Source: Kribbibacterium absianum (GTDB lineage Bacteria > Actinomycetota > Coriobacteriia > Coriobacteriales > Atopobiaceae). Taken from it: a stretch of 64,000 nt of DNA. Below the pieces are notes generated by a model. The model saw nothing but the letters and a program-made list of their open reading frames with translations. It was not told where the DNA came from and made no database searches. A program made the position numbers and the translations under genes. This document shows, one piece after another, positions 35,037-40,970 of this stretch (position 1 is the stretch's first letter; each line of letters opens with the position of its first letter). The DNA lies in NCBI RefSeq assembly GCF_030067705.1, contig NZ_JASJEX010000001.1:62001-126000 (forward strand). The letters are read 5' to 3'.

Positions 35037-36335
35037 CTATGCGCGTGACGCTTCCACTGCCGCGAAGCCTCGCTCGAGGTCGGCGATGATGTCGTCGACG
35101 TGCTCCGTGCCGATGGAGAGCCGCACGGTCTGCGGCCGGATGCCGGCGGCGAGCAGCTCGTCCTCCGACAGCTGGCTGTGGGTGGTGCTCGCTGGGTGAA
35201 TCACGAGGCTCTTGACGTCCGCCACGTTCGCGAGCAGCGAGAACAGCTCGAGGCTCTCGGTGAACAGCCGCGCCTCGTCGGCCGAGCCGTCGATGTCGAA
35301 CGTGAAGATGCTGGCCCCGCCGTTGGGATAGAACCGCCGGTACAGCTCGCCCTCGCGACCTTCGGCCAGGGACGGATGGTCGACGCGGCCCACGAGCGGG
35401 TGCCGGCTCAGGAAGCCCACCACCGCGAGCGCGTTCTCCACCTGGCGCTCCACGCGCAGGGACAGCGTCTCGGTGCCGAGCAGCAGGAGGAACGCGTCGA
35501 ACGGCGAGAGGCACGCGCCCTGGTCGCGCAGAAGCGTCGCGCGGGCCTTGAGCGCGTAGGCCGCGTTCCCGCCCGCGTCCGAGAAGACCAGCCCGTGATA
35601 GCTGGGGTTGGGCTGTGAGAGGCCGGGGAACGCGTCGGACGCGGCTCAGTCGAACGTGCCGCCGTCCACGAGCACGCCGCCCATGGCCGCCCCATGGCCG
35701 CCAAGGAACTTCGTGGCGGAGTGCACCACGACGTCCGCGCCGTGCTCGAGAGGCCGGAAGAGCGCCGGTGTGGAGAACGTCGCGTCCACAATCAGCGGCA
35801 GGCCGTGACGGTGTGCGATGGCGGACCAGGACTCGATGTCGAGCACCTCGGATCCGGGGTTGCCGAGGGTCTCGGCGTACAGCAGCTTGGTCTCGGGACG
35901 GATGGCCGCCTCCACCGCCTCGAGGTCGGTCTGGTCCACGAAGGTGGTCTCGATGCCGAGGTCGCGCAGCGTGTGCGAGAAGAGGTTCGCGGTCCCGCCG
36001 TAGAGGTTGGTGGAGGCCACGACGTGGTCGCCGGCGCCCGCGACGTTCTCGATGGCCGCCGTGATCGCGGCGGAGCCGGACGAGAAGGCCACGGCCGCGG
36101 TGCCCCCTTCCAGCGCCGCGACGCGGTTCTCGAACGCGGCCACCGTCGGGTTGGTCAGGCGCGAGTAGATGTTGCCGGCCTCGGCGAGCCCGAAACGCGC
36201 GGCGGCAGACTCGCTGGTGGGGAAGACGTAGCTGGTGGTGGCGTAGATGGGCACGGCGCGGGCGCCCGTGGACAGGTCCGGGTGCTCCTGGCCGGCGTGG
36301 ACCTGAATGGTCTCGATGTGCGTGCTCTGGCTCAT
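35037..36335 (-). pseudogene. metY: O-acetylhomoserine sulfhydrylase, interrupted by one TGA
   Basis: PLP enzyme of the Cys/Met metabolism family that makes homocysteine from O-acetylhomoserine and sulfide. The product (432 codons) reads through normally: [20 protein letters not shown] at the N-terminus, [12 protein letters not shown], Schiff-base Lys in [11 protein letters not shown] near residue 208, and a C-terminal IHPASTTHSQLSEDELLAAG. But codon 230 is TGA (35648-35646) where the family has a conserved Trp (FDW). Both halves are in the same frame, so a single TGG-to-TGA change, a sequencing error or programmed read-through explains it. TGA is a normal stop elsewhere here. Confidence 0.75.
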
Positions 36336-36402
36336 GGGGTGCTCCTTCTTGGTTTGACGCGTTCAAACAAACGGGGAGTCCCGGGAGCCTCAGGAGGTGC
36401 GG

Positions 36403-36480
36403 CTACGCGCAGGAGCGCCGCGACCGAGGGTCCCGGGAGCAGGGCATTCGCATCGACATCGCGTTCGTCGTGGCGGCCAT
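36403..36480 (-). CDS. Met-rich leader peptide upstream of metY
   Basis: A 25-residue ORF starting MAATTNAMSMRMPC with four methionines in the first 12 residues and two cysteines, ending RSCA and TAG. A perfect-looking RBS (GAGAGGAG) stands five bases before the ATG at 36480. It ends 67 bases before the metY ATG. Two copies of TCCCGGGA (in the Met/Cys region and downstream of the stop) could pair in alternative ways, and GTTTGA/TCAAAC flank an ACGCG loop just before the metY RBS. This layout fits translation-dependent attenuation sensing methionine or cysteine supply. Confidence 0.5.
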   Translation of the reverse strand: MAATTNAMSMRMPCSRDPRSRRSCA

Positions 36481-37115
36481 GGCTGCTCCTCTCGGTCTCG
36501 TGCGCGGGCGGGGTGCCATAAGGGATACCCCCGCCGGTAAACACCTAGCAGTGCGGTAGGAATTATCGAAACCGAGAAGAAACGCGCGCCCTCCTCTAAA
36601 ACCGACGTAGATGAATCGCCGCGCGCGGAGGAGCCATGGCCGAGTCCCACCGCCGGGTGGCAAGCGGGGCGGGCACGCAGCACTGCGGACGTGGCGCGGG
36701 GCACATGCGGGCCCGGACTGAAGGGCCTCAGGCATGTCGCAGGATTGCAGGTCTGAGTGACGCTCAGATTGCGGATCTGGATTCGTGCGAGGCAGAAACT
36801 GCGATGCGGACGTTCAGATGGCGGTTTTCCCTGCTGCCGAATCGAGAAATGCGATCTGGCTCGGATGTGCAATGTGAGGCCGACCGGGGGCGCACGGTCC
36901 TCACGGGTGCCCATCGGTTCACCTTGTCCGCCCACAGCTGGTCATCTTTGCCAGCTCTAGCTGCACAAACGACCGCCCACGCGCTTTTCCCTGTGGATTT
37001 GTCTTCCCGCCCCCGGCGTCCCCATAACAAAGGCGATAATCGCTCGTAGGTATGGAAACGGGCGCCGGCGCCGTGCCGCCGTCCGCAGGAGAGGCGAACT
37101 AACGGAGGTTCCAGC
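36481..37115. other. Long intergenic region metY leader - fba
   Basis: Minus strand, near the metY leader: a GATAAT-like hexamer (about 36562) and a hairpin with GGCGGGG/CCCCGCC arms (36505-36535). Plus strand: a GGAGGAG-ATG at 36636 opens a 137-codon frame to 37049, but its codon use degrades after about 35 codons and it overlaps the fba -10; I do not accept it as a gene. Around 36730-36870 there are degenerate inverted motifs (TCTGAG/CTCAGA, ATCTG/CAGAT) and lower GC. GATAAT at 37035-37040 is a likely fba -10 box. Confidence 0.4.
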
Positions 37116-38221: not shown

Positions 38222-39487
38222 ATGAGTAAGCGATTCAAGGCCCCTGCGGCGCTCGCGCTGGTCGGGGCGTTCCTGTGCGCTGTCGCCTTCGGTGCGCCGA
38301 CGCCGGCCGTCGCGGACACGGCGGCACAGCTGCAGGCCAAGCTCGACACGGCGCAGAACAAGCTCGACTCCCTCTACGAGCAGGCCGAGCAGATCTCCGA
38401 GCAGCTCAACGGCACGAAGGTGCAGCTGCAGGAGACCAACGCGAAGATCGACCAGGCGAACTCCGACATCGCCCAGACCGAGAAGGACATCGAGGCCAAG
38501 AAGGCGGAGCTGGCCGAGCGCCAGTCGCACCTCTCGGCCAAGGTGGCCCAGGACTACAAGAACGGCACGGTGTCGTTCCTCTCGATCGTCCTCAACGCCA
38601 CCTCCTTTGACGACTTCGTGAGTCGCATCCACTATGCGGACAAGGTGTCCGAGAAGCAGGCGTCCGACATCGACGCCACCAAGCAGCTGCAGGCGGAGCT
38701 CAACGACAAGAGCATCGAGCTCACGGCTCAGAAACAGCAGTTGGAGCAGCAGAAGGCGCAGCAGGAGCAGCTCCAGGCGGACCAGGAGTCGCAGCAGGCG
38801 CAGCTCGACGCCCAGGTCTCCGAGACACAGTCCTACGTGAACGGCCTCGACCAGGAGGTCAAGGACAAGCTCGCCGAGGAGCAGGAGGCCGCCCGGGCGC
38901 AGCAGGAGGCCGAGGCCAACGCCGCCCGCGAGGCAGCGAACGCCGCGCTGGCGAGCAGCTCGTCGGGCTCCAGCGGCGGTTCTTCCGGCTCCTCCAGCTC
39001 GGGGAACGGCTCTTCGACCGCGCCCTCCGGCTCGACTGGCTCCCGTCCTGCCGCAGGCTCCACGCCTTCGGGCTCCAACCCTGGCTCCGGGTTGAGGCCT
39101 TCCGGTTCGGGCGGGTCGTCGTCGAGCGTGGCCGGCAGCACGGCCCAGCGTCAGGCGGTCATCGACGCCGCCTGGTCCATGGTCGGCGGCTCCTATATCT
39201 ACGGCGCCTACGACCCGGCCAACCGCACCTTCGACTGCTCGGGCCTCACGATGTACTGCTTCTCGAAGGCGGGCATCTCGCTCCCGCACCAGTCCGAGGC
39301 GCAGAAGGGCTACATCAGGAACTTCGTGCCCCTGTCGCAGCTCCAGCCTGGCGACCTCGTGTGGAAGAGCGGCCACGTGGGCATCTACGTGGGCAACGGC
39401 CAGATGATCCACGCGTCCAACCCCACCAGGGGCATCATCGTCGGCCCGATGACGTGGGGCATGGTCGGCGGCGGCTGGCCGGCGTAA
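38222..39487 (+). CDS. Secreted NlpC/P60 peptidoglycan hydrolase with coiled coil (copy 1)
   Basis: 421 residues: signal peptide (1-31, cleavage after AVA), long coiled coil (33-245) of the CwlO/PcsB type, a Ser/Gly/Pro-rich linker (247-300), and a C-terminal NlpC/P60 domain with catalytic Cys339 in TFDCSGLTMYCF, His385 in KSGHVGIYV and a third polar residue in MIHASN. Probably a D,L-endopeptidase for daughter-cell separation, held inactive by its coiled coil. It starts at ATG 38222 after GAGAGG. A paralogue follows. Confidence 0.92.
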   Translation: MSKRFKAPAALALVGAFLCAVAFGAPTPAVADTAAQLQAKLDTAQNKLDSLYEQAEQISEQLNGTKVQLQETNAKIDQANSDIAQTEKDIEAKKAELAERQSHLSAKVAQDYKNGTVSFLSIVLNATSFDDFVSRIHYADKVSEKQASDIDATKQLQAELNDKSIELTAQKQQLEQQKAQQEQLQADQESQQAQLDAQVSETQSYVNGLDQEVKDKLAEEQEAARAQQEAEANAAREAANAALASSSSGSSGGSSGSSSSGNGSSTAPSGSTGSRPAAGSTPSGSNPGSGLRPSGSGGSSSSVAGSTAQRQAVIDAAWSMVGGSYIYGAYDPANRTFDCSGLTMYCFSKAGISLPHQSEAQKGYIRNFVPLSQLQPGDLVWKSGHVGIYVGNGQMIHASNPTRGIIVGPMTWGMVGGGWPA

Positions 39488-39665: not shown

Positions 39666-40970
39666 GTGAAGAAGCCTCTCCGCACGCTGTTCCTGGCGGT
39701 CGTCGCCATCCTTCTGGGAGGCGCCCTTCTTGGCGCGCCTCGAATCGCCCTGGCCGACACCTCCACCGAGCTCCAGGGCAAGCTTGCCAGCGCCCGGGCA
39801 CAGCTCGACGAGCTGTACGGCCAGGCGGAGCAGATCTCCGAGCAGCTCAACGGCACCAAGGTGCAGCTGGACGAGACCACCGGGCTCGTCGAGCAGGCGG
39901 AGGCGTCCATCGCGCAGACCGAGCGCCAGATTGCCGAGAAGCAGGCGGAGCTGGCCGAGCGCCAGCAAAGCCTCGCCGCCATGGCCCGGGTGGACTACAA
40001 GAACGGCAGCGTGTCGGTGCTGTCGGTCCTGCTCAACGCCAACAGCTTCGAGGACCTGTGGGAGCGCGTGTACTACGCCGACAAGGTCTCGGAGCAGCGT
40101 GCCGGCCAGATCGCCGCGACCAAGCAGCTCAAGGCGGAGCTCAACGATAAGAACATCGAACTCACCGGGCAGAAGCAGCAGCTCGAGACCCAGCGTGCGC
40201 ACCAGGAGTCCCTGCTTGCCGAGCAAGAGGCGCAGCAGGCCTCGCTCGATGCGCAGGTGGCGGAGGCCGAGTCCTACGTGAACGGCTTGGACCAAGAGGT
40301 CCAGCAGAAGCTCGCCGAGGAGGCGGCCGCCGAGAAGGCAGCGCAGGAAAAGGCCGCACAGGAAGAGGCGGCGCGCCAGGCTGCCGAGGAACGGGCCGCT
40401 GAGAGCGCGACGACGCAAGGCGGCCAGTCCGCAGGGTCGGCGACCAACCCTGCGGGCGCTTCAGAGTCGCGCCCGAGCTCCGGCTCGAACCCCACGAACG
40501 AGAGCGCGGGCGGGAGCGCGAACACGACCCCGAAGCCGAACCCGAGCACGCCCGCCACGCCGACGGGCACCACCAAGCCGAGCGGTGGCTCCTCACAGGG
40601 AACGACAACGCCCACCTCGGGCGGTACGAGCGCCCAGCGGTCCGCTGTCGTGGCCGCAGCGTACGACATGCTCGGCGGATCCTACGTGTACGGGGCTTAC
40701 AACCCGGCGAGCCGCACCTTCGACTGCTCGGGCCTCACGATGTACTGCTTCGCGCGAGCGGGCGTCTCGCTGAGCCACTACAGCGAGAGCCAGAGGGGCG
40801 CCATCGCGAACTTCAAGCCCGTCTCCCAGCTGCAGAGGGGCGACCTCGTGTGGAAGAGCGGCCACGTGGGGGTCTATGTGGGCGGCATGATGATCCACGC
40901 CTCGACGCCGAGCAAGGGCATCGTCCTCAGTAGCTGCGGCTACATGTCGGGCGGCGGCTGGCCTGCCTGA
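39666..40970 (+). CDS. Secreted NlpC/P60 peptidoglycan hydrolase with coiled coil (copy 2)
   Basis: 434 residues, a tandem paralogue of the preceding gene: signal peptide (KKPLRTLFLAVVAILLGGAL), coiled coil (36-250), a Thr/Pro/Ser/Asn linker in place of the Ser/Gly linker, and an NlpC/P60 domain with Cys354 in TFDCSGLTMYCF and His400 in KSGHVGVYV. Start GTG 39666. Coiled coil and catalytic domain are highly similar to copy 1, while the linkers have diverged. Each copy has GGGCAC upstream of a TACCAT hexamer, 55-75 bases before its start, possibly a shared promoter element. Confidence 0.9.
   Translation: MKKPLRTLFLAVVAILLGGALLGAPRIALADTSTELQGKLASARAQLDELYGQAEQISEQLNGTKVQLDETTGLVEQAEASIAQTERQIAEKQAELAERQQSLAAMARVDYKNGSVSVLSVLLNANSFEDLWERVYYADKVSEQRAGQIAATKQLKAELNDKNIELTGQKQQLETQRAHQESLLAEQEAQQASLDAQVAEAESYVNGLDQEVQQKLAEEAAAEKAAQEKAAQEEAARQAAEERAAESATTQGGQSAGSATNPAGASESRPSSGSNPTNESAGGSANTTPKPNPSTPATPTGTTKPSGGSSQGTTTPTSGGTSAQRSAVVAAAYDMLGGSYVYGAYNPASRTFDCSGLTMYCFARAGVSLSHYSESQRGAIANFKPVSQLQRGDLVWKSGHVGVYVGGMMIHASTPSKGIVLSSCGYMSGGGWPA

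Follow-up and report, generated by a model that had tools for sequence, protein, structure and literature searches.

The attenuators of trp, his, leu, thr and phe operons combine a short ORF carrying codons for the end product with mutually exclusive RNA helices and an intrinsic terminator. Sulfur amino acid codons are likewise found in short ORFs before sulfur genes in Actinobacteria, namely in the cysteine leaders of the Mycobacterium cys operon and Bifidobacterium cbs, in which runs of Cys codons lie near the stop and neither a conserved terminator nor a conserved antiterminator accompanies them (PMC1262725). Leader peptides for Cys, Trp and Leu were reported in the same study, which saw no conserved regulatory RNA structure upstream of methionine operons (PMC1262725). 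In other Bacillota, target genes similar to those considered here are controlled by SAM riboswitches (S-box and others) or by Met T-boxes, and a further mode of control is known from TnaC and other arrest peptides that sense a ligand.

Here, we analyse a Met- and Cys-rich leader ORF before metY in Kribbibacterium absianum and the family to which it belongs. This leader family shares the short ORF, the mutually exclusive helices and, in most members, the intrinsic terminator of the operon attenuators, but it differs from them in its Met/Cys codons, in being limited to three segments, the first of which lies in the ORF, in an antiterminator arm that starts 5 nt after an AUG, and in a conserved CGA codon before that AUG. 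In contrast to the actinobacterial cysteine leaders, most of its members have competing helices that include a terminator, and in contrast to SAM riboswitches and Met T-boxes it has no Rfam match and its sensor would be a translated ORF. One of its two classes resembles TnaC-like peptides in keeping a chain of about 14 residues that ends where a stall is presumed, in some cases with a UGA stop directly after it; no sequence relation to TnaC was seen, and the other class is without a conserved chain. No leader of this type is named in the accessible part of a wide-ranging survey of attenuation in bacteria (PMC2965389). A full-text literature search, whose scope left out subscription papers and preprints so that an earlier description is possible, returned neither a description of the family nor any Met-codon attenuator, in agreement with a preliminary description of the locus that knew of none. 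Hence the family is apparently undescribed so far.

The leader ORF and its RNA in the window

The window, the whole stretch of 64,000 nucleotides analysed here, carries the leader and metY on its minus strand. The leader ORF, MAATTNAMSMRMPCSRDPRSRRSCA, has 25 codons and a stop TAG (36480..36403, minus strand; stop at 36405..36403), and is also placed in the family alignment; its Shine-Dalgarno (SD) sequence, GAGAGGAG (36493..36486, minus strand), lies 5 nt 5' of the leader ATG, and 67 nt separate the leader stop from the metY start at 36335. Both the ORF and its ribosome-binding site had been proposed in the preliminary description, together with four Met in 12 codons and two Cys, and this composition is confirmed, with Met at codons 1, 8, 10 and 12 and Cys at codons 14 and 24. 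Codons 11-12 form the CGA-AUG pair (36445..36450, minus strand) that serves as the anchor of the family.

The repeated TCCCGGGA blocks that had been pointed out earlier, at 36431-36438 and 36379-36386, are the two arms of a covarying helix. Segment 1, TCCCGGGA-C-CCTCGG (36424..36438, minus strand), is the 5' arm of this antiterminator-like helix and lies within the leader ORF, whereas segment 2, CTGAGG-C-TCCCGGGA (36379..36393, minus strand), is the 3' arm and lies past the leader stop. The helix built around the two TCCCGGGA copies has 14 bp with a single mismatch, and the predicted fold of the hairpin has an energy of -36.1 kcal/mol (z = -3.4). A second proposed stem, GTTTGA/TCAAAC, does exist at 36352-36357/36363-36368, but it is not seen in relatives and is no part of the family element. 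As had been supposed, a SAM riboswitch is not in evidence: no Rfam family matched at the locus, and neither the leader nor its RNA matched Rfam 15, Pfam or NCBIfam at curated thresholds. An Rfam scan of the whole window returned a sole match, the aspS RNA motif (RF02930; 29485-29564, minus strand), and no riboswitch at the leader.

Elsewhere in the window, two tandem genes on the plus strand (38222-39487 and ~39666-40970) encode similar secreted proteins that, as judged by eye, have coiled-coil-like N-termini and NlpC/P60-like C-termini; the pair lies downstream of a fructose-bisphosphate aldolase-like gene.

Conservation before metY and two leader classes

MetY homologs were taken from GTDB genomes and from the window's own GTDB family, and the 600 nt upstream of each were searched for a short SD-preceded ORF with an Arg-Met pair, with any Arg codon allowed and the spacing left free. 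Such an ORF occurs in 39 of 109 upstream regions in the sense direction and in three in the antisense direction, and the Arg codon is CGA in 31 of the sense cases and in none of the antisense ones; the ORF and its SD, in the window and in its relatives, are strand-specific. The preliminary description had tied its proposal to conservation of the short Met-rich ORF and of its Met codons. A Met/Cys-rich ORF is indeed kept before metY and before other methionine and cysteine genes, and the Met codons persist in genus g9 even where Cys and CGA are missing.

Two classes of leader can be told apart. In class B, which includes the window copy, Met/Cys codons are followed by R-M, two residues and S-R-A. 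Class A has the chain FExLVRxNFRFGRM, or in its wider pattern F-E-x-L-[VL]-R-x-N-[FY]-R-F-G-R-M, after which the ORF stops at once (RM-stop) or continues for a few residues, often Cys. Among 23 class A sequences, Arg at -7, Asn at -5 and Gly at -1 are present in all 23 and Arg at -3 in 22, with up to six codons used. CGA encodes the final Arg, before Met, in 22 of the 23, a count to be read with the origin of the set, 13 of whose sequences came from the metY-anchored search (12 with CGA) and part from a pattern containing CGA. Since these residues are kept despite varied codons while CGA is kept as a codon, selection appears to act there on the chain as well as on CGA. Two hybrids (L011 and L082) join the class A chain to segment 1 at the same spacing. 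Class A copies have no recognisable terminator, and in several of them, located before metY or metQ, the ORF stops right after R-M.

Individual loci add some detail. In a group of class A loci (L151, L153, L158-L163, L166, L171, L175 and L177), the leader ends at CGA-AUG-UGA or soon after, and metY or metQ starts ~60-85 nt after the CGA without a recognisable terminator; Rho, mRNA decay and translation are candidate outputs there. One upstream region (L099, genome G098) has tandem leaders ~90-360 nt upstream of metY, the first beginning MKQRTDIVTGVIMEMRMCTCMCKTCCAHLSDVV and the second being the class A leader MENYFEKLVRENYCFGRMCPCNRHL, with a terminator-like hairpin, CCGGGAGACTT..AAGTCTCCCGG, and then a T run between them. 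In addition, seven class B leaders of Clostridia (L077, L142-L145, L148 and L149) have a second conserved CGA-UGU-(UGA) near the ORF end, an echo of CGA-AUG.

As for the residue that is sensed, Met and Cys account for 36.7% of codons ahead of the anchor in class B, against 5.6% in shuffled sequences and 2.8-17.5% in the other frames. Met, which the preliminary description had singled out, is supported by the conservation of its codons, but Cys codons are equally prominent in many relatives. In genus g9, the leader before MetQ reads MTMAMSM[H/Y/S]MPSSRAP.., with alternating Met kept, varying residues between them, and neither Cys nor CGA. Alternating Met codons with varying neighbours are what codon sensing predicts, and not what sensing through a nascent chain predicts.

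Two competing helices in class B

The class B core consists of Met/Cys codons, usually followed by CGA-AUG, then 5 nt, and segment 1, CTCCCGGGCA, inside the ORF; segment 2, TGCCCGGGAG, lies downstream and ends 70-133 nt after the CGA. In 28 distinct sequences, nine of the 14 pairs between segments 1 and 2 have changed on both sides and 83.7% of cells are paired, values reached by none of 500 shuffles, and slid registers give at most 53%. At one locus (L223), the core differs and the change is compensated, CTCCCAGGCG:TGCCTGGGAG. Alternatively, segment 2 can enter an intrinsic terminator with a third segment and a U run. This holds for almost every Bacillota copy and for L088 and L089; in the genus g9 copies L190-L193 it also enters a terminator, of different sequence. 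A recognisable intrinsic terminator is absent from many Coriobacteriia copies, including the window copy 3' of its segment 2, and the automatic terminator fold at L011 is not a clean case. The alternative structures suggested earlier are therefore present as a competing terminator in most relatives, but not as an intrinsic terminator in the window itself.

The 5-nt spacing between AUG and segment 1 was preset in the pattern searches and in one tally, and evidence for it hence comes only from the metY-anchored and covariance-model sets, in both of which it holds. Two further possibilities were set aside. Pairing of CGAAUG with a CAUUUG that precedes segment 2 was abandoned for want of conservation of CAUUUG, and translational control by SD sequestration in Coriobacteriia was rejected, as masking segment 1 gives no consistent change in predicted SD pairing.

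The regulon and a promoter layer

The pattern CGAATG-N5-CTCCCGGGCA has 12 sites in 391 Clostridia genomes against none for a reversed control, and each of the sites examined falls within an ORF that has an SD and has segment 2 and a terminator after it. Among pattern matches, one inside a coding region (L117) was discarded and five others (L129, L130, L134, L136 and L137) look like chance. A covariance model gave 10 strong sites in the window's GTDB family and 19 in Clostridia, counts in which the sequences used to build the model match by construction. Weaker sites in the family have a leader ORF in L190-L194, L196 and L198. Another weak site, at C2:220073 in the genome of K. absianum itself, the only other match there below E = 0.1, was rejected as a second leader, being a terminator-like hairpin without an ORF.

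Leader relatives are found in Coriobacteriia and Clostridia. The genes downstream encode MetY, MetQ, MetN, a MetE-like methyltransferase, a MetB/MetC-like enzyme, amino-acid ABC permeases and a binding protein related to cystine transporters, CysK with a GshA-like protein, and a peptidase T-like protein. Several of them scored below the curated NCBIfam cut-offs, so the gene names give the family and not a proven substrate. Judged by this gene content, the regulon of the leader family is one of methionine and cysteine.

At most class B loci, a promoter -35 box lies inside or adjoins a palindrome, typically CCTATTGACATAGTAGG, ~60-90 nt upstream of the leader start, which places the leader inside the transcript. 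Several relatives carry a divergent regulator of the Rrf2 family, and this promoter is probably also the target of a repressor. Regulators of this family adjoin metY at L091:932-1357, L105:723-1148, L104 and L097, and most loci with a leader have a palindrome of the CCTATTGACATAGTAGG type across the promoter, an arrangement that resembles a CymR-like control layer.

How the leader might work

The best reading of the leader family is an attenuator that responds to starvation for Met, or for Met and Cys; translation of the leader, the signal, the sign of control and stalling at AUG are what we infer from the arrangement. When charged Met-tRNA, and in many members also Cys-tRNA, became short, the leading ribosome would wait at the AUG or at the preceding Met/Cys codons. 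Since the AUG is 5 nt upstream of segment 1, a ribosome with this codon in its A site would halt just short of the helix; the helices of frameshift signals that stop a ribosome begin ~5-8 nt after the A-site codon. Segment 1 would be left free to pair with segment 2, the 2:3 terminator would be blocked and the gene would be transcribed. With Met and Cys plentiful, the ribosome would move onto segment 1, the 2:3 helix would form and transcription would stop. CGA is a slow codon, decoded by an inosine tRNA, and its position before the AUG would prolong the wait. A waiting ribosome would thus mean ON and an advanced one OFF, a sign that fits starvation control of acquisition genes. Comparison of the spacing with the mRNA entry site of the ribosome reduced the statement that a stall at R-M must mean OFF to one of two readings.

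Some points weigh against this attenuator. Met is required to start every protein, because of which Met-codon attenuation looks awkward on paper, and Met starvation should hamper initiation at the leader's own AUG too, an objection to Met-codon attenuators. The many Coriobacteriia copies without a recognisable intrinsic terminator, the window copy included, are a further difficulty. Moreover, the conservation of CGA exceeds what a pure hungry-codon model calls for, which counts against the best explanation, and the full freedom of segment 1 with a ribosome at the AUG depends on an assumed footprint: judged by toeprint edges, its first 3-4 nt would be covered.

Rival readings

A 25-codon ORF in one GC-rich genome would, taken alone, be weak evidence, and one may argue that the ORF and the repeats of the window are there by chance. 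Conservation and covariation refute this, and with the pattern control, the covariance-model sites and the strand bias also opposed to it, the probability of a chance origin is negligible. A more serious rival is that methionine, SAM or a related compound arrests the ribosome with R-M in the P site, whereupon the ribosome covers segment 1, the 2:3 helix forms and the gene is off, which is TnaC-like in principle with the opposite outcome. The invariant class A chain with its CGA, the leaders that end at RM-stop before metY or metQ, and the hybrids, in which chain and segment 1 are united at the same spacing, all speak for such an arrest. Yet class B, with the window, has only Met/Cys codons and no conserved chain before R-M, genus g9 keeps neither Arg nor CGA, and the CGA-containing pattern contributed to the class A set; in addition, class A is without a recognisable terminator, so the sign of control cannot be read from it. 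We regard ligand-induced arrest as unlikely, though least so for class A. Stalling at Met codons as the sensor, as first proposed, agrees at the family level with the Met/Cys-rich ORF, the helix and the terminator, but it is not separable here from such an arrest. A metabolite-binding riboswitch with the segment 1:2 helix as its P1 and an incidental ORF is considerably more doubtful still: a P1-like helix does compete with the terminator, and Bacillota copies have a predicted inner helix that is shorter, ATGGC:GCCAT, but the interior is not conserved between Coriobacteriia and Clostridia, Rfam has no match, and codons outside the helix rank among the most conserved positions, in an ORF with an SD, in-frame Met/Cys enrichment and, in class A, conservation at the amino acid level.

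Compatible with the starvation attenuator at the family level is the view that the locus in this genome is a dead relic without present function. The metY gene (O-acetylhomoserine sulfhydrylase; 35037..36335, minus strand) reads open throughout but for a single in-frame TGA, at codon 230 (35646..35648, minus strand), where 29 of 29 homologs have Trp, and as printed it is not intact owing to this codon, which is either a nonsense mutation or a sequencing or assembly error. Otherwise, the gene has no frameshift, keeps the PLP lysine and shows no raised dN, so that the damage is recent if it is not a sequence error. An operator-like palindrome, CCTACCGCACTGCTAGG (36560..36544, minus strand), is retained, and the matching palindrome in relatives holds or adjoins the -35 box, but the promoter -35 and -10 hexamers that relatives have are not recognisable near the window palindrome (best 7/12). 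The missing terminator and the short distance from CGA to segment 2 (72 nt, against 90-133 nt in most members) also favour decay, whereas the leader ORF and the 1:2 helix are intact, and several apparently working Coriobacteriia copies are likewise without an intrinsic terminator. Another MetY-like gene, 45% identical, is present in the same genome at C3:8107, and no leader was found in the 330 nt upstream of it. The window locus is probably a decaying family member; whether decay has gone as far as loss of function is, on this evidence, an even call.

Returning to the starvation attenuator, we consider it likely that the window ORF belongs, probably as a decaying member, to a ribosome-sensed leader-peptide family that controls genes for methionine and cysteine acquisition. 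The preliminary description, which took the leader for an attenuator, was right in kind; its interpretation holds for the family and is in part supported. The fuller proposition, of an undescribed and widely shared leader-peptide family that gauges the supply of methionine, and of cysteine, at a programmed CGA-AUG, with some members helped by the FExLVRxNFRFGRM chain, and that is coupled to a terminator or another output, has in our estimate about equal chances of being right or wrong.

Implications

Copies of the leader family sit before methionine and cysteine genes of many gut bacteria. If the proposed reading is true, the family would be a peptide-based counterpart of SAM riboswitches and Met T-boxes. 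It would also offer a clean system for studying how an AUG, a slow CGA and a nascent chain together set the dwell time of a ribosome. Moreover, a conserved regulon of this kind would explain how those gut Coriobacteriia and Clostridia in which no SAM riboswitch is evident at these genes regulate the uptake and synthesis of methionine and cysteine.
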